From: Gemmatimonadota bacterium
GTDB lineage: Bacteria > Gemmatimonadota > Gemmatimonadetes > Gemmatimonadales > Gemmatimonadaceae
Direction of reading: 5' to 3'
NCBI GenBank assembly: GCA_016874035.1
Contig: VGVM01000001.1
Span: 101,878 to 165,877, forward strand
Length of the DNA: 64,000 nucleotides
Shown piece by piece: positions 493 through 11,758 of the stretch (its first letter is position 1; every line of letters starts with the position of its first letter). A program made the translations under genes and the position numbers. The notes under the pieces were generated by a model, which was not told where the DNA came from, ran no database searches, and saw only the letters and a list, made by a program, of their open reading frames with translations.

Positions 493-782
493 CGCGAGTC
501 CCTCGAGGACCGGGAGCGGGGCAGTCCTGTGTCCTCGGTCACATCACCCGATATTCGGGGTAACACTGCGGTGACACCCCCCGGTACCATCGGGTAAACA
601 TCTATGCGGTGCAAAACCGCGTGTGATTGTGTGATTAGCACGCTGGTCAACACACGAGAAACATGTCACGCCGGAGCTGTCGTTGAACGCCAGGCCAACG
701 TCGGTGACGTATCGGGGCCAGATAGCCATTTGGGGCGTCAGGGGGTAATCTGACACACCTGTTTGCGTTCAAACGCGCCCCT

Positions 783-1325
783 GTGAACGACTTCGATCCG
801 TCCCTCCCGATCCGCGCCAAGCGAGGCGACGATCAGGCGTTCATCCAGCTCGTGGAGCACTACTACCCACGCTGCCTCCGGTTCGCCCGGAACATGCTGG
901 GGAGTGAGCAGGACGCTGAAGAGGCCGTGCAGGATACGTTCGTGCGGGTCCATGACAGTTTTCCCAGGTTCCGCGAGGACGCCCGGTTTGACCCCTGGCT
1001 CTTCCAGATCCTGGCCAACCGATGCCGAACCTTGATGGCCCGCAACCGCCGCCATCGTTCCGTCATCGAATACGGGGAGATTCCGCTCACGGCATCGGCC
1101 GAGCATGAGATCGGCGCGGATTGGGCGGAGGAAGTACGGGTGGTACTCGACACCCTGCCGGTGGAGCAGCGGGAGGCGTTCCTGCTCCGACATGTGGAAG
1201 ACCTATCGTACGAGGACATTTCCGCGATGACGGGAGCGGGGCTCTCGGCGCTGCGGATGCGGGTCAAGCGAGCGTGCGATGCACTTCGCACGCGATTGAC
1301 CGAGGTGACTGAAAGTGAACGATGA
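783..1325 (+). CDS. ECF-type RNA polymerase sigma factor
   Basis: GTG start; region 2 (HYYPRCLRFARNMLGSEQDAEEAVQDTFVRV) and region 4 (LPVEQREAFLLRHVEDLSYEDISAMTGAGLSALRMRVKRA). Confidence 0.93.
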   Translation: MNDFDPSLPIRAKRGDDQAFIQLVEHYYPRCLRFARNMLGSEQDAEEAVQDTFVRVHDSFPRFREDARFDPWLFQILANRCRTLMARNRRHRSVIEYGEIPLTASAEHEIGADWAEEVRVVLDTLPVEQREAFLLRHVEDLSYEDISAMTGAGLSALRMRVKRACDALRTRLTEVTESER

Positions 1326-1905
1326 ACGAGACGAAATGATCGAGCGCGCAGCGCGGGTGCTGCGCACACCGCCCCAGGTGCGGAGCGGCACGGTGGCTCG
1401 GGTGCTGATGGCCGTACGCGCACGACATGCCCGCCCGGCGTCGCGCTGGCAGCGCGCGCTCTGGTGGGTCGCGGACACGTCGATCTCGGCACGCGGCGCC
1501 GCGGTCCTTGCCGCCGCGTCGCTGGCAATCGGGTTCGTGGCGCGCGGCACTGTGGCGACCAGTGAGCCGATCGTGGTCGCGAGCGGCCCGAGCATCGAGC
1601 TCCAGCCGGTCGCGGACGGCGACGCGGCCGAACGACCGGTGCCGGTGGCGCTCGTCTTCGAGCAGGCCAACGCGCGCGACGTGGCGGTCGTCGGCGATTT
1701 CAACGGTTGGGACAGGGCCGCGAGCCCCATGGTCCGCGCCGGCACTGAGGGGCCATGGACGGCCACGGTGCTCGCCAAGCCGGGCCGCCACACCTACGCC
1801 TTCATCGTTGACGGGACGACCTTGGTCGCGGATCCGAATGCCGCCAAGGCCACGAGCAATGACTTCCGCGGCGACGCGTCCGTGATGATCGTTCGGCCGG
1901 ACTGA
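1315..1905 (+). CDS. Single-TM protein with C-terminal glycogen-binding-like (CBM48/AMPK early-set) domain; possible anti-sigma
   Basis: Overlaps the sigma ORF by 11 nt; short N-terminal segment, TM (ARGAAVLAAASLAIGFVARG), then VALVFEQANARDVAVVGDFNGWDRAASPMVR...GRHTYAFIVDGTTLVADPNA. Confidence 0.8.
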   Translation: MNDERDEMIERAARVLRTPPQVRSGTVARVLMAVRARHARPASRWQRALWWVADTSISARGAAVLAAASLAIGFVARGTVATSEPIVVASGPSIELQPVADGDAAERPVPVALVFEQANARDVAVVGDFNGWDRAASPMVRAGTEGPWTATVLAKPGRHTYAFIVDGTTLVADPNAAKATSNDFRGDASVMIVRPD

Positions 1906-2612
1906 TGAGGCCGACCATGCGGCTCAACCGGCGAAGGGGCGTCCTGCGGACGTTGGCGGGCATTTGCGCTATGGTACCCGTCGGCGTATTCGCGGGCGGC
2001 GTGGTGGGCGCCTTGGGCGTCGTCAGCGCGCCGGCGTCCCTCGCTGCGCAGGAAACCCGGCTGCTGCTGATCAGTGACGACGGCACCCGGGACGCCGTTC
2101 GCCGGTTCCTCGATGCCGCCCGCGTGCGCGGCACGCCGACGGAGCCGCTGGTGTCACGGGCGCTCGAAGGCGTCGCGTTCCGCGCCACCCCGAAGGAGAT
2201 CGAGCGTGCCCTGGCGGCCCTCGAGAAACGGCTCAAGAAATCCCGCGAGTTGCTGGGCGCGAACTCCACGGTTGACGAACTGGCCGCCGGCGCCGACGCG
2301 CTGGCGCACGGCGCGCCGGAATCGGCGCTGCGCGACATGCGGCGGATCGCTCCCGGGCGCCGGCTGACCGTCGAGCTCGGCGTACTCACCGAGCTGCTCG
2401 CCAAGGACATTGCCCCCAAGACGGCGGCGACCATGGTGCTGCGTTTGATGGCGCGCGGCGCGAGCGGCACGCAACTTACCGAACTCAATGCCGCCGTTCA
2501 GAAGGATGTCGCCCTTGGCGTCAAACCCGTCTCAGCGCTCGAACTGCGCGGACGTGGCGTCATGTCGCTCCTCCCGCCCGCGGGCAGCGTCGTCACGGCG
2601 CAGAAGCGCTAG
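1905..2612 (+). CDS. Exported hypothetical protein
   Basis: TGATG stop/start overlap with upstream gene; N-terminal signal/anchor ending SLAAQ. Confidence 0.75.
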   Translation: MRPTMRLNRRRGVLRTLAGICAMVPVGVFAGGVVGALGVVSAPASLAAQETRLLLISDDGTRDAVRRFLDAARVRGTPTEPLVSRALEGVAFRATPKEIERALAALEKRLKKSRELLGANSTVDELAAGADALAHGAPESALRDMRRIAPGRRLTVELGVLTELLAKDIAPKTAATMVLRLMARGASGTQLTELNAAVQKDVALGVKPVSALELRGRGVMSLLPPAGSVVTAQKR

Positions 2613-2631
2613 CGACGACCGGTTCCATCCC

Positions 2632-2666
2632 AGCGGGCAGCCCTTGCGGCTGCCCGCTTTGTATTT
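2632..2666 (+). terminator. Rho-independent terminator-like hairpin inside the operon
   Basis: AGCGGGCAGCC-CTTGC-GGCTGCCCGCT (11-bp perfect stem) followed by TTGTATTT. Confidence 0.75.
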
Positions 2667-3795
2667 CGGTGTAGCGACGGCCCTCACCATCGTCGCGCCG
2701 CGGTACGCCGAGGCGCAGACCCGGAACGACCTCCGGATCGAGGCCGGCGTCGCACAGATCGTCCAGCCGTCTTCAGACGATCGGGTCGCCGCCACGTTGG
2801 GCATCATCCGTCACCGTGGCGATCCCACGCTGGCGTGGATCGCTTCCGGCAATGCCACGTGGGCGCGTGATAGCGTGGCGGCCGCGCAGCTCGCCATTGG
2901 CGCGGCCTGGCGGCCTTCGCCGGCCAGCAAGTGGCAGCTCGAGGCCGCTGGCGCCGGGGTGCTGTTTGCCCTCACGGATCCCTTCCGCGATGCGAGCGCG
3001 TCGGCCGGCGCGCGCGCGCGTTGGTTGCGCTGGTCATCGCTCTCGGCGAGCGCGGGCGCGGCCGCCGGACGCACGGTGCGTTCGGCGGGGACGGCGGCGT
3101 CACGCCAGATGGACCTCGGCATCTCGGTCGCAGCCGGCTCGGCGGCGATCGATCTCGCGGTACGCGACGTCGGCAGCACGGACGGCCTGCTGCTCGAGGC
3201 AAGCCAGGTGACGACGCGCGACGGGTCGCGGGAGTTCGACCTGCGCGACTTCGTCGCGTCGGTTGCATTTGAGCGCGGTCCGATCGAGCTCTCATTGGTC
3301 GAGACAATCCGGCGCGGCCGGGCGTCAACGATCGCCGAGCAAGCGGCATTCATGGCGGCCGCGACGTGGCATGTGACCGCGCGGTACGCGCTGGTGGTGA
3401 CCAGCGGTCGCCAGCTTGCCGACCCGGTGCGAGGGGCACCGGATGCCACGGTGACCCAGATAGCGGTCCGGCGGTCGGTGACGTCGCTGGACAACGAGGT
3501 GGCGCCTCGCGCGAGCGAGGCGTCCGTCAGCGTGACCCGGGTCGGCGAGCAGCGGATCGTGGTCCTGCGCGTGGCGGTGCCCGCGGCGACCCGTGTGGAA
3601 GTGGCCGGGAATTTCTCGGGCTGGGAGCCCGTCGAGGGCGAACGACGCGATGGCGCCTGGGAGGCCCGCATCCCGCTCGGCCCGGGCCGATACCGGATCG
3701 CCTACCGTCTCGACGGCGGCCCATGGCTGGCGCCCGCCGGGCTCGCCCGGCTCCGGGAGTTTAGCGGGGAGGTCGGCCTCCTGGTCGTGCCCTGA
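2644..3795 (+). CDS. Exported outer-membrane-like protein with C-terminal glycogen-binding-like domain
   Basis: ORF 2488..3795, realistic starts TTG 2644 or TTG 2659; signal ending APRYAEAQ; C-terminal VLRVAVPAATRVEVAGNFSGWEPVEGERR...GRYRIAYRLDGGPW. Confidence 0.75.
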   Translation: MRLPALYFGVATALTIVAPRYAEAQTRNDLRIEAGVAQIVQPSSDDRVAATLGIIRHRGDPTLAWIASGNATWARDSVAAAQLAIGAAWRPSPASKWQLEAAGAGVLFALTDPFRDASASAGARARWLRWSSLSASAGAAAGRTVRSAGTAASRQMDLGISVAAGSAAIDLAVRDVGSTDGLLLEASQVTTRDGSREFDLRDFVASVAFERGPIELSLVETIRRGRASTIAEQAAFMAAATWHVTARYALVVTSGRQLADPVRGAPDATVTQIAVRRSVTSLDNEVAPRASEASVSVTRVGEQRIVVLRVAVPAATRVEVAGNFSGWEPVEGERRDGAWEARIPLGPGRYRIAYRLDGGPWLAPAGLARLREFSGEVGLLVVP

Positions 3796-3930: not shown

Positions 3931-5229
3931 ATGCACACGTCCCGTCGCACCTTCGTTCGCGGCCTCGCGGCCGCAGGCGTTGCGTTCCCTGCATTCCGTG
4001 AGGATGCGTTCGCGCACCTCTTCCGCGCGAACACGATCGCCGGCGAAAAGTCGGCCGCGGCAGTCGCCGAGGATGAACTCTACTGGTCCGAGATTGCGCG
4101 CGCGTTCGACGCCGACCGGACGATGATCAACCTGAACAACGGCGGAATCTCGCCGACGCCGAGCCACGTGCTCGAGCAGATGATCCGCGACCTGAAGTTC
4201 ACGAACGAGCTCCCGGTCGAGCACATGTGGCGCATCCTGCAGCCGCGCATGGAGAGCACCCGCCGCGAGCTGGCGAAGGAGTTCGGCTGCAGTCCGGACG
4301 AGATGGCGATCGTCCGGAACGCGAGTGAGGCGCTCGAGATCATGATCTACGGGATCGATCTCCAGCGGGGCGACGAAGTGCTGGTGACGAACCAGAACTA
4401 CGGCCGGATGATCACGACGTGGCAGCAGCGGGAGCGTCGCGAGGGGATCGTCCTCAAGCAGATCTCGTTCAAGGTTCCGCCGCCGTCGGACCAGTACATC
4501 GTGGACCAGTTCAGGGCCGCGATCACGCCGCGCACGAAGGTCATCGAGATCACGCACATCACGAACCTCACGGGCCAGGTCCTGCCGGTGCGCGAGATCA
4601 TGCGCATGGCGAAGCCGCTGGGCATCGAGGTCTTCGTGGACGGCGCCCACGCGTTCGGCCAGTGGCCGATGAAGCGCGACGAGCTCGAGGTGGATTTCTA
4701 TGGCACCTCGCTGCACAAGTGGCTGCACGCACCGATCGGCGCGGGCTTCCTGTACGTGCGGCAGTCGAAGATCCCGAAGTTGTGGCCGCTGATGGCCGCC
4801 GCGGAGAGCCAGGCAAGCGATATCCGGAAGTACGAGGAGATCGGGACGCACCCGCAGGCGAACTTCAACGCGGTGTCGGCGGCGCTCGCGTTTTCGCAGG
4901 GGATGGGGCTGGATCGCAAGATCGCGCGACTCCGGTACCTGCGCGACCGCTGGGCGAAGCGCCTGATGAGCGAGAGCGACCGGGTGAAGGTGCTCACGCA
5001 GCTCGGGCCGGACCGGAGTGGCGCGATCGGGTTCTTCAACGTGGACGGGCTCGACCCCGCCAAGCTCGGCGGCTGGCTGCTCGAAAAGTACCGGATCGTC
5101 AACACGCCGATCATTCATCCCGAGTTTCAGGGCATCCGTATTACGCCGAGCGTGTACACCACGCCCGCGGAGATCGACACGTTCGCCGACGCGGTGTTGA
5201 AGGCGATTAAGTCTGGCATTGCATCGTAA
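3931..5229 (+). CDS. Tat-exported class V aminotransferase (isopenicillin-N epimerase-like, PLP-dependent)
   Basis: MHTSRRTFVRGLAAAGVAFPA twin-arginine signal; NLNNGGISPTP, DGAHAFGQWP, GTSLHKWLHAPIGAGFLYV (PLP Lys). Confidence 0.9.
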   Translation: MHTSRRTFVRGLAAAGVAFPAFREDAFAHLFRANTIAGEKSAAAVAEDELYWSEIARAFDADRTMINLNNGGISPTPSHVLEQMIRDLKFTNELPVEHMWRILQPRMESTRRELAKEFGCSPDEMAIVRNASEALEIMIYGIDLQRGDEVLVTNQNYGRMITTWQQRERREGIVLKQISFKVPPPSDQYIVDQFRAAITPRTKVIEITHITNLTGQVLPVREIMRMAKPLGIEVFVDGAHAFGQWPMKRDELEVDFYGTSLHKWLHAPIGAGFLYVRQSKIPKLWPLMAAAESQASDIRKYEEIGTHPQANFNAVSAALAFSQGMGLDRKIARLRYLRDRWAKRLMSESDRVKVLTQLGPDRSGAIGFFNVDGLDPAKLGGWLLEKYRIVNTPIIHPEFQGIRITPSVYTTPAEIDTFADAVLKAIKSGIAS

Positions 5230-7828: not shown

Positions 7829-10800
7829 CTAACGGGCGATGACCTGCATGCCTGCGCCGGCGGGAATGGCGATCGGGCCGCCGCCTCCCCCGAACGGATT
7901 GCCGCCTGCCCCTGCGGTCCCGGAGCGGATGGACGAAAGAAACCGTGGGTCGAGGTAGCTCGTGACCAGCGCCGGCAGCTGGCGGCGTTGTGCGTCGGTC
8001 AGGAGCCCCTTCACCTTCGGCGCGAGATTCCTGAGCAGGTCAACCGTCGCCTCACGCCCCTTCTTGTACTGCGCGTACGCCGTGCCTTCATCGTAACGCT
8101 CTGGCAGTGCGGCGAGCGAACGCGCAACCGGAGTCCAGACCGAGTCAAGCCGGATCAGGTACCACCGGTTCAGCGTGGCCAGGCTATCGGCCTGCTTCGC
8201 GGTGAGCTTGAGCGTATCGGACTGGCGCAGCACCTGCGCGATCGGGTTCACCATGCCGCCGTTGGCGTAGATGGACTTGATCACGCCTTCCGGGAGCTTG
8301 TTGCCTTCGTTGCGGCGCCCGATGTTCATCTGCTGCGTGAGCGACTGCCGCTCCCGCGTCGGGCCGATGTCGAACCGGAACTGCGCCGTCGCCACCACGG
8401 GCGTGCGCGTGGCCGTCAGCAGCGGGCTGGCGGAGCCGAATCGCTGGTTCACTTCGTAGCGGAACCGATTGTTGACCGCATCGAAGCCGCGCACATACAG
8501 CAGGTTCTGGTCCGGGACAGCGGGCTGCCCCCAGCCGTGTTGGCGATCGCTGCCGTGCATCAGCATGTCGAGCGCGCCGATGGGATTCGACACCGAGAAC
8601 GACAGGATCGCGCGCTGCGGCATCCGGAACTTCACCGGGTTGAGCGAGATGCTCAGGTTCGCCTGCGAGGTCCATGGCCCCTGGCAACTGTTCCGGCGCG
8701 CGAGCCGGCCGGCCTGCTTGCGCAGGCAATCCTGCACGTAGCTGGGCGCGTCGTCGAGCAACTGTGCCATCGCGATGGAGAGCGTCGGGTCGCTCGAGAT
8801 CGAACCGTCATACACGAACGCACGGTCGTTGGCAGAGCCGTCGCCGTTCACATCCGACCCCACCATCGGCGTGAAGGGCGTGCCGGAACGGAATCCGCCG
8901 GTCCAGCCGACCCGCACGAGATCGAACGCATTGTAGAAGAGCGAATACTGCACCTGGTGCCGCGAATCGAAGTTCGAGCGCGCCCACTGGAAGTCAAGCG
9001 GGTTCCCGGCCGTATTGCCGCCGAAGCCGCGCGAGCGCTCGCGCACGTTCGTGTACACGTACGAGGCATTCCACGACAGCCGACTCGAGAACGTCAGCGG
9101 CGAGATCGTCGCGCGGAACTGGCGACTCTCCGAGCGAAGATCCGAGCGCGATTCGGTGACGCGGTTGTACGCCGTGGTCACCCGCGCATCGCGCGTGGCG
9201 ATCGCGCCGGTACGCGTGTCGATGCTCGACGGCTGCACGAACACGGGTCGCCCAGCCTCGCCGGCGAGCGAGAGCCGCTGCGTCGGGAGGAAGTTGGCGT
9301 CCACGGTGCCGGCCTGAGCGAGGTTCAGCGAGTACGTGACCTCGAAGTTGCCGTTGAATCGGTTGCCGAGGATCGCGCCGCTCCACTGCAGGTTCGAGCG
9401 GATGCTGCGGGGCGCGTTCCAGCGGTCATCGTACAGCGTGACGTTCGGCGCGCTGTTGGAGAACACCGAGCCCGTTGAACCATCCGCGCACGTTGACGGC
9501 GCGAGCGCGGTACCGTTCGCGTACGACGGCCAGTTCGGCGCGGGCACCGCGAGCCCCGTGCACACGATTTGCTGCAGGCCAGTTGGCAGGCCGGTGTTGT
9601 CCAGCGCGCCGCTGAGCGCCTGCGTGGCTGGGTTGCCCTGGAAGAGCCCGACCCCGCCGCGCACGGTCGCACGCGGACCGCGGAACGCGCCTTCAAACGC
9701 ACCGATCTGCGCCGCCGTGCCGTAGTTCCACGAGAAGCCCACGCGCGGGCTCAGGTAGATCCGGTTCGGGGCGACGTCGTTGCGGACGCCGATCGCCTGT
9801 TCGAGCGCGGTGTTCCGCTCAGGTCGGTCGCCATAGTAATTGCCATCGAGCCGAACGCCGTACTGGATCTGCAGGCGATTGGTCCTGCGGTACGAATCGC
9901 CGAGCGACACCGCGCCGATGAACTGCCCACCGTCGCGAATCCGCGGCTGCAGGGTCCGCCCATACGTGGCCGGCCGTCCGGCGTCGAGGTCCGCGAGCGA
10001 GAGGTAGCTGAACGTGCCGCGGCCGTTCAGCGCCTGGTCGAGGCCGTAGCGGTCGTAACGCAGCTCCGTTGAGAGTTTCACCCGGTGCTTATTGTCGAGC
10101 GAGAACCACGAAAGCAGGTTGGTGAACGCGAACGCGCCGTTGGTGGTCGCGTTGTCGAGCGCCGCGTTGCCGCCGAACGCAACGGACTTCACGCCATTGG
10201 TGCCGTCCGGGAAGGTCGAGTTGATGCGAACCGAGCCGCCCGGGAGCAACAGGTACGGGTCGGTGGCCGCACGCGACGACGTAAGCCCGATCGTGCTCTC
10301 CGTGAGCACCCCTGACTCGAAATAAAAGGAGTGCCGCAGCTGGCTGCCGGCGTTCCAGGTGAACCGGTCGCCGCTGTGCGCGGGCATCTCCGCCGTGAGA
10401 TTGCCGATCGGCGACTGCCGGTTCCAAGACGCGTTGACCGCCACGCTGTAGGCCGACCCGGCGCGGGACGATGGCGGCGAGAAATCGAAGGACCCGAGCA
10501 CGGAGCCTTGATCGCCGACGCGATCGGACGGTGCGCGCCCGATGACCGCCGGGACGCCCAGACGCTGCAGGATCGCCAGCAGCCGCGTGACGGAATCAGC
10601 CGCGATGCCGCTGGTCTGCAGGCCGCGCGCCGACGTGTTGAGCAGCGATTGCAGGTCGTTCGAACGTCGGCCGAGCTGGTACGCCATGTTGTAGAACGCC
10701 TTGTTGTACCGGATCGGCCCGGACACCCGCCCGCTCAGCGACGTGTTCGAATACTCGTTGCCCAGTTCCTGTGCGGCGGCGTCGGTCCACTGCAGCTGCG

Positions 10801-11578
10801 GTGCGTCGAGGTTCAGGCTGTTGGTGCGGAGGATGAAGTTCGTTCCGCTCTGCGTGCGCAGGTTGAAGTTCGCGCCGCTGAACCCACCGCGAGATACGTC
10901 GTAGGGCGATGTGGTCAGCGCGCCGCCCACGGCGGCGTCGCGCGGGATGTCGGCCCCGCCGAAGTTCTGCCCGTTTAGCGTGGTCGAGTTCTGGCTCGGG
11001 TCGAGCCCCAGGACCGAGAATCCGGACGGGTCGCCGTCGGCACCGGGAACAAGCAGCACGCCCGGCACGGAGGCCGCCATGGCCGCGATTTCCCCCTGCT
11101 GTGCGGCGGTAAGCGCCGATGTGTTGACCGCGCGTTCGGTGCCGCTGATGTCGGCCTGGGCCTGGTTCCGGTCAGGGCGGACGCGGTCGCCCTGCACGCG
11201 CACGGCGCCGAGCGAGGTCGCCGTCCGCTGCATCTCGGCGTCCGCAATCAGGATGTCCTCGTCCGCGATTCGCTTGATCTCATAGCGGCGCGGCGCGTAC
11301 CCGATCGCATTGAACGTCACGAAATAGTCGCCGTCGCCGCCGGGGAACGTCACCGTGTAGCGTCCATTGGCATCCGAGCGCGCCTGGCGGCTCACCGCGC
11401 CCGAAAGCGTGGTCACCGTGACTTGGGCGCCTTCGAGCGGCTGTCGTTCCGGGCCTGTCACGCGCCCGCGGATGACGTCAACGGTCTGGCCCCCTGCGCT
11501 GGAAGCGGTCGCGGTGAGCGCCACGGCGAGGGCGAAAGCCGAGCAGAGGCGGAAGGGCCAGGGAAACCGATTGATCAC
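7829..11578 (-). CDS. TonB-dependent receptor with N-terminal carboxypeptidase-regulatory-like domain
   Basis: IRGRVTGPERQPLEGAQVTVTTLSGAVSRQARSDANGRYTVTFPGG; plug and long beta-barrel; GTG start at 11578 with signal peptide. Confidence 0.88.
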   Translation of the reverse strand: MINRFPWPFRLCSAFALAVALTATASSAGGQTVDVIRGRVTGPERQPLEGAQVTVTTLSGAVSRQARSDANGRYTVTFPGGDGDYFVTFNAIGYAPRRYEIKRIADEDILIADAEMQRTATSLGAVRVQGDRVRPDRNQAQADISGTERAVNTSALTAAQQGEIAAMAASVPGVLLVPGADGDPSGFSVLGLDPSQNSTTLNGQNFGGADIPRDAAVGGALTTSPYDVSRGGFSGANFNLRTQSGTNFILRTNSLNLDAPQLQWTDAAAQELGNEYSNTSLSGRVSGPIRYNKAFYNMAYQLGRRSNDLQSLLNTSARGLQTSGIAADSVTRLLAILQRLGVPAVIGRAPSDRVGDQGSVLGSFDFSPPSSRAGSAYSVAVNASWNRQSPIGNLTAEMPAHSGDRFTWNAGSQLRHSFYFESGVLTESTIGLTSSRAATDPYLLLPGGSVRINSTFPDGTNGVKSVAFGGNAALDNATTNGAFAFTNLLSWFSLDNKHRVKLSTELRYDRYGLDQALNGRGTFSYLSLADLDAGRPATYGRTLQPRIRDGGQFIGAVSLGDSYRRTNRLQIQYGVRLDGNYYGDRPERNTALEQAIGVRNDVAPNRIYLSPRVGFSWNYGTAAQIGAFEGAFRGPRATVRGGVGLFQGNPATQALSGALDNTGLPTGLQQIVCTGLAVPAPNWPSYANGTALAPSTCADGSTGSVFSNSAPNVTLYDDRWNAPRSIRSNLQWSGAILGNRFNGNFEVTYSLNLAQAGTVDANFLPTQRLSLAGEAGRPVFVQPSSIDTRTGAIATRDARVTTAYNRVTESRSDLRSESRQFRATISPLTFSSRLSWNASYVYTNVRERSRGFGGNTAGNPLDFQWARSNFDSRHQVQYSLFYNAFDLVRVGWTGGFRSGTPFTPMVGSDVNGDGSANDRAFVYDGSISSDPTLSIAMAQLLDDAPSYVQDCLRKQAGRLARRNSCQGPWTSQANLSISLNPVKFRMPQRAILSFSVSNPIGALDMLMHGSDRQHGWGQPAVPDQNLLYVRGFDAVNNRFRYEVNQRFGSASPLLTATRTPVVATAQFRFDIGPTRERQSLTQQMNIGRRNEGNKLPEGVIKSIYANGGMVNPIAQVLRQSDTLKLTAKQADSLATLNRWYLIRLDSVWTPVARSLAALPERYDEGTAYAQYKKGREATVDLLRNLAPKVKGLLTDAQRRQLPALVTSYLDPRFLSSIRSGTAGAGGNPFGGGGGPIAIPAGAGMQVIAR

Positions 11579-11758
11579 AGGTGAGGTCGGGCGGAAAGGA
11601 GCGCAGCGGCCAGCGGTGACGCCGGCGCTGGGATGGGCGGGTCGCGAAAAAGGCGCGATCCCACCGATTAGAACGAGCATAGGCCCCTAAAGGTTGCCGT
11701 TTTCACCGAATTGACATCTCGCGCCGACCCGGCGCCCACTTCGGCGCTCAAATGGGGC

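Follow-up and report, generated by a model that had tools for sequence, protein, structure and literature searches.

A predicted trans-envelope sigma factor switch with AMPK-type early-set domains in Gemmatimonadota

In the cell-surface signaling systems of the FecI/FecR/FecA type, including FoxI/FoxR/FoxA, an ECF sigma factor is combined with an inner-membrane anti-sigma factor and an outer-membrane barrel that carries a periplasmic signaling domain. In the Fox system, the STN-type domain of the anti-sigma factor is required for contact with the signaling domain of the transducer, a precedent for contact through domains of the same fold between a transducer in the outer membrane and an anti-sigma factor (PMC11637429). 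The dual-membrane anti-sigma factors Dma1 and Dma2 of Bacteroides, of which Dma2 affects polysaccharide-utilization loci (PMC13088901), are single proteins that run from the outer membrane to the cytosol and have been reported only in Bacteroidota. The RseA/RseB pair of the sigma-E system consists of a membrane anti-sigma factor and an exported modulator. In class II anti-sigma factors of the CnrY type, the cytoplasmic part is only about two helices long, and sigma region 2 is reached by the second helix; a dual-interface rule has been formulated, according to which the last cytoplasmic helix of an anti-sigma factor meets sigma region 2 (PMC7406223). Gemmatimonadota are common and little studied, and the control of SusC/RagA-type uptake in this phylum appears to be undescribed in the open literature that could be searched.

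The locus analyzed here occupies positions 783-3795 of the window, i.e., of the whole 64,000-nt stretch of DNA under study, and consists, as a sequence-only reading had stated, of four genes on the same (plus) strand. Gene 1 (783..1325) starts with GTG and encodes a 180-aa protein that contains sigma regions 2 and 4 only, the set that defines ECF sigma factors (Pfam entries Sigma70_r2, E value of 1.6e-17, and Sigma70_r4_2, E value of 9.6e-13; NCBIfam assignment sigma70-ECF). It shares an overlap of 11 nt with gene 2 (1315..1905, plus strand), which has the TGATG at 1903-1907 in common with gene 3 (1905..2612, plus strand), both as originally read. Because these overlaps recur in homologous loci (sigma/gene 2 in 38 of 43, genes 2/3 by 1 or 4 nt in 32 of 40), the four-gene arrangement is not a product of chance. 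Gene 4 extends from about 2644 to 3795 on the same strand. Between genes 3 and 4 lies a terminator-like hairpin (2632..2658, plus strand), strong and with a T-rich tail, which encloses the TTG codon at which gene 4 is proposed to start. This hairpin is not significant by itself (1 found versus 1.6 expected in shuffles), and the short gene 3/4 gaps in relatives suggest a lack of conservation; the hairpin may act as an attenuator, or gene 4 may start elsewhere.

Gene 2 encodes a predicted membrane anti-sigma factor with a cytoplasmic segment (residues 1-56), a transmembrane segment (residues 57-75), and a periplasmic early-set domain (residues 109-193). The single hydrophobic stretch and the positive-inside charge agree with the proposed single transmembrane segment preceded by a short cytoplasmic N terminus. 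The noted lack of a zinc finger was also upheld: HxxxCxxC, the motif of class I zinc anti-sigma factors, was found in none of 100 gene 2 homologues. The N-in single transmembrane segment and the position of the gene next to that of the sigma factor are traits expected of a membrane anti-sigma factor, in which the cytoplasmic segment would be the part that binds sigma. Four distant gene 2 proteins (L036, L240, L243, and L244) have longer N termini. The N terminus of L244 resembles RseA_N (E value of 0.0084), “anti-sigma factor” (1.9e-4), and “putative anti-sigmaE” (2e-4), and that of L240 resembles “anti-sigma factor” (1.1e-3), all of these matches being below the curated cutoffs. Judging by the overlapping gene, the N-in topology, and these anti-sigma-like N termini in distant family members, gene 2 appears to encode an anti-sigma factor.

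Covariation between the sigma factor and gene 2 was also examined. Across 100 sequence pairs, the four strongest couplings all hit the cytoplasmic segment of gene 2, which makes up 42 of the 181 columns, with Tyr28/Phe63 of sigma region 2 and Val27/Thr26 of gene 2 at the top. In a covariation analysis of all four proteins (90 sets), the strongest combination was again that of sigma region 2 and the N terminus of gene 2, with 16 strong pairs versus 3.2 expected. Since the coupling of sigma region 2 was also raised with several other partners, phylogeny contributes to this covariation, which is no more than suggestive. The covarying gene 2 position would fit the dual-interface rule (PMC7406223). 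An apparent natural fusion of sigma and gene 2, at L083, was rejected, as the join reads as a frameshift.

The early-set domain that had been recognized in the outer part of gene 2 was recovered by HMM search above the Pfam cutoffs for both AMPK1_CBM (34.3 bits versus a cutoff of 26.8; E value of 2.8e-8) and CBM_48 (E value of 7.5e-8), which places it in the CBM48/AMPK1_CBM family. The same kind of domain had been proposed for the C terminus of gene 4. There, the CBM_48 score remained below the Pfam cutoff (19.0 versus 22.4 bits), but the family profile built from 42 homologues matched AMPK beta-1 (1z0n; E value of 1.3e-4), and the AlphaFold2 model includes a separate C-terminal beta domain. 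This model (pLDDT of 88) has 14 strands, with a barrel at residues 27-278 and the beta domain at residues 292-382; in Foldseek searches it retrieved porins, and the 14-stranded OmpG aligned best over the barrel. With an even number of strands, the C-terminal domain would lie on the periplasmic side; gene 4 is predicted to encode an outer-membrane beta-barrel with a periplasmic early-set domain. Gene 3 has a signal-peptide-like start and no Pfam match. Its AlphaFold2 model (pLDDT of 87) is all-alpha, with about 10 helices, and found no confident fold match in the PDB (best Foldseek E value of 0.089); this exported protein is a conserved component of the cassette.

The glycogen contacts of AMPK beta-1, which we take to be the five residues Trp100, Lys126, Trp133, Leu146, and Asn150, are kept unevenly and not as a full set. 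Among 43 members of the gene 2 family, Trp100 is invariant, Trp133 is found in about half, Asn150 in 16, and Lys126 in none, and the Leu146 position is aromatic; gene 2 of the window retains Trp100 alone and has Phe in place of Leu146. In the gene 4 family, Trp100 is present in all 43 proteins and Trp133 in 39. The sequence-only reading had named loss of carbohydrate-contacting residues across homologues as evidence that would count against it; such loss is partly seen in gene 2. The early-set domains of genes 2 and 4 fall into separate groups, the gene 4 group being weakly supported, and so give no support to a recent duplication that would have derived one from the other; by this comparison, they are apparently separate, old lineages.

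Matches to gene 2 were found in 152 of the 249 Gemmatimonadota genomes, ∼60% of the sample. An ECF sigma gene is located directly upstream of gene 2 in 100 of the 103 loci inspected, and genes 3 and 4 usually adjoin. In the first 43 loci, sigma adjoins gene 2 without exception and genes 3 and 4 follow downstream in nearly all, although gene 3 was not detected in L033 and L034. In the 60 lower-scoring loci, sigma is directly upstream of gene 2 in 57, and the order sigma-2-3-4 is retained in 37; several others have the order 2-4-3 or carry gene 4 on the opposite strand. In some of these 60 loci gene 4 was not found nearby, so it may be dispensable or shared. These Gemmatimonadota loci were chosen by their gene 2 matches, and the gene 3 profile served as an independent test. 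In the phylum to which a Myxococcales-labeled genome belongs, 6 of 141 genomes gave a match, and in that of a Dyadobacter genome 1 of 148 did. Each of the seven matches has, within a few kilobases and on one strand, an ECF sigma gene and genes for two early-set proteins, one a membrane protein and the other a barrel; these genomes may be drafts, in which mis-binning of single contigs is possible. In the Myxococcales-labeled genome, the order is sigma-gene 2-gene 4-gene 3, all on a single strand. Conservation of the four-gene order in other genomes, which the earlier reading had named as a check, was seen in most of the Gemmatimonadota loci inspected, and the cassette also occurs in a few genomes from other phyla. 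A search limited to open papers found no description of the cassette or of such an ECF group, as the earlier reading had also held; the sigma factor may nevertheless belong to one of the published, numbered ECF groups.

A motif of the form kGTGAC-N16/17-GGGTA precedes the sigma gene in 32 of 43 loci, compared to 2.2% of control segments. In the window it takes the form GTGAC-N16-GGGTAA (571..597, plus strand), a predicted autoregulatory, sigma-specific promoter. A stricter form was found in 48 of 100 loci versus 0.5% of controls, with dinucleotide shuffles of the upstream regions giving 0.68 on average. On the other strand of the same regions there were 12 such sites, so some of these regions may hold divergent promoters. 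A close form of the motif has six sites in the 3.08-Mb genome to which the window belongs, and its reversed control has none.

In eight sister genomes, seven motif sites are found shortly upstream of genes for SusC/RagA-type receptors, and five of these belong to one orthologous operon (genomes G000, G057, G063, G083, and G169). Where tested, the receptor under the motif was assigned to the SusC/RagA family (TIGR04056, 456 and 447 bits versus a cutoff of 368). A version of the motif with shorter spacing occurs in G027, and G115, a member of another genus, has an additional site upstream of a receptor-like gene. G173 has a similar site and no gene 2 match, so another sigma factor may read it. 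With the motif present before both the sigma gene and an orthologous SusC/RagA operon, the switch probably regulates both its own expression and uptake across the outer membrane. The shared motif makes a link to nutrients plausible and names no ligand. The lipoprotein encoded after the receptor was considered as a SusD candidate because of its position and the look of its start; this identity was not confirmed by Pfam, NCBIfam, or a PDB profile. Among the receptor-operon neighbors tested, no glycan-degrading enzyme was recognized. A second SusC/RagA-type receptor with the same motif is encoded beside ATP synthase genes in two closely related genomes (L141 at 13574 and L136 at 9156).

Several other motif matches were discarded. 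Those within coding regions (a thymidine-phosphorylase-like gene and neighbors of an RND pump) were disregarded, being attributed to chance or to similarity in coding sequence. Within the window's genome, motif sites upstream of genes for an export operon of the SLBB/Wza-like type, for a Rieske protein, and for an enzyme resembling phytoene desaturase were dropped from the regulon because the search of the genus revealed no conserved equivalents. In G000, GTGAC-N16-GGGTAT stands 56 nt before an SLBB/Poly_export gene and a Wzz-like gene (L142 6309-10059, contig C25) and was not seen in the sister genomes, and GGTGAC...GAGTAAT stands 25 nt before an amine-oxidase/phytoene-desaturase-like gene (L112 1910-3435, contig C74).

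The cassette resembles the FecI/FecR/FecA systems in its division into an ECF sigma factor, a predicted inner-membrane anti-sigma factor, and a predicted barrel of the outer membrane with a domain on the periplasmic side. Unlike them, it includes the additional helical gene 3, its barrel is not a TonB receptor and has no plug, and early-set domains take the place of FecR and STN; no Pfam match to FecR, STN, or a TonB-dependent transducer or plug was detected in genes 2 to 4. It is similar to Dma1/Dma2 in having predicted parts in both membranes, but genes 2 and 4 are separate and their products carry early-set domains, so no single polypeptide spans the two membranes. With RseA/RseB it shares a predicted membrane anti-sigma factor, an exported partner, and the weak RseA_N resemblance of a distant gene 2 protein; it differs in the presence of a barrel gene in the operon and in the early-set nature of the periplasmic domain of gene 2, and gene 3, all-alpha and lacking Pfam matches, shows no homology to RseB. 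The short cytoplasmic segment of gene 2 is reminiscent of CnrY, but the distant members have longer, class-I-like N termini, so the short form may be secondary. CnrY is not known to carry an early-set domain. The early-set domains belong to the same family as the AMPK beta glycogen-binding domain and CBM48 (E value of 2.3e-11 by profile to 1z0n), from which they differ in being exported and encoded in a sigma operon, as well as in their incomplete glycogen contacts. As the cassette lacks the defining traits of FecR/FecA, Dma, and RseA/RseB, it is best viewed as a novel variety of cell-surface signaling by ECF sigma factors, and the relay favored below would follow FecA/FecR in its logic while using other components.

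In the favored explanation, the four genes form a trans-envelope switch in which a relay from the early-set domain of gene 4 to that of gene 2 releases the sigma factor, a proposal whose chances are judged to be about even. The gene 4 barrel would sit in the outer membrane with its early-set domain hanging into the periplasm, and gene 2, in the inner membrane, would face the periplasm with a related early-set domain and the cytoplasm with a short segment that binds sigma; gene 3 would be an exported helical accessory protein. A change in the outer-membrane state or in a ligand would be sensed by gene 4, whose early-set domain, aided by gene 3, would then touch that of gene 2 in a different way. 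In response, gene 2 would free the sigma factor, probably after proteolysis, and the freed sigma would transcribe its own operon and the operon of the SusC/RagA-type outer-membrane receptor. Sequence evidence supports the conservation of the cassette, its domain architecture, the model of the barrel, and the motif proposed as promoter; inhibition of sigma by gene 2, the early-set contact, the role of gene 3, the proteolytic release, and the signal are inferred. The relay is favored by analogy with FoxA/FoxR (PMC11637429) and the Dma proteins (PMC13088901). That the early-set domains of a non-TonB barrel and of an anti-sigma factor actually touch across the periplasm, together with a helical protein, and so signal to an ECF sigma factor would be a new kind of cell-surface signaling and is a more tentative proposal, less likely than not. 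Covariation between the two early-set domains was at background (7 strong pairs versus 7.0 expected in 90 sequences). This result speaks against the switch as outlined above, as do the loci in which gene 4 was not found nearby, the below-cutoff scores of all anti-sigma matches, and the share of phylogeny in the covariation of sigma region 2. If true, the AMPK glycogen-domain family would gain a role in bacterial signal relay, and there would be a route from the outer membrane to sigma without a TonB receptor as the transducer. With the cassette so widespread in the sampled genomes, and with a predicted promoter and target at hand, uptake regulation in Gemmatimonadota becomes testable.

The sequence-only reading had seen here a polysaccharide-sensing sigma/anti-sigma switch with an envelope partner. 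The switch and the partner have gained support from the gene order across phyla, the distant N termini, the topology, the sigma-gene 2 covariation, and the conserved autoregulatory motif, but polysaccharide sensing was not borne out. Literal glycan sensing, in which the early-set domains would bind a periplasmic alpha-glucan or other polysaccharide and binding to gene 2 would free sigma, could draw on the family membership of these domains, on Trp100 and Trp133 being kept together in 39 of 43 gene 4 proteins and about half of the gene 2 proteins, on the SusC/RagA receptor under the same motif, and on the wide occurrence of polysaccharide-utilization loci in Gemmatimonadota (PMC10469786). It nevertheless appears doubtful, given that Lys126 is never kept and Asn150 in 16 of 43, that gene 2 of the window lacks both of these and Trp133, and that no glycan-degrading enzyme was recognized among the tested neighbors of the receptor.

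Monitoring of outer-membrane assembly or stress in the manner of RseA/RseB, with gene 4 as a surveillance barrel, gene 3 as an RseB-like modulator, and sigma answering damage to the envelope instead of nutrients, is an unlikely reading: an RseA_N-like N terminus in one distant gene 2 protein, an exported helical protein in nearly all cassettes, and the barrel partner speak for it, but gene 3 shows no RseB homology, and the target predicted from the conserved sites is a single receptor operon rather than chaperones and proteases. That the genes are mere neighbors, with gene 2 serving a structural role in the envelope instead of regulating the adjacent sigma, would agree with the below-cutoff scores of gene 2 against anti-sigma families; the overlap of the two genes, an association that persists across phyla and is recovered from gene 3 alone, and the anti-sigma-like N termini of distant homologues make this very improbable.

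Several genes near the cassette or related to it deserve mention. An exported class-V aminotransferase-like protein (3931..5229, plus strand; Aminotran_5, E value of 8.7e-39) is an accessory neighbor in the window, and its homologues are encoded directly downstream of the cassette in 21 of 43 loci. In some sister species, its gene starts only a few nucleotides from the end of the cassette and may be a fifth member of the operon. Also near the cassette, on the minus strand of the window (7829-11680), is a gene for a 1283-aa TonB-dependent-receptor-like protein with an N-terminal carboxypeptidase-regulatory-like domain. In a Myxococcales-labeled genome, a GGDEF-like protein (L035 5007-6219) has at its C terminus an early-set domain similar to the one in gene 2.
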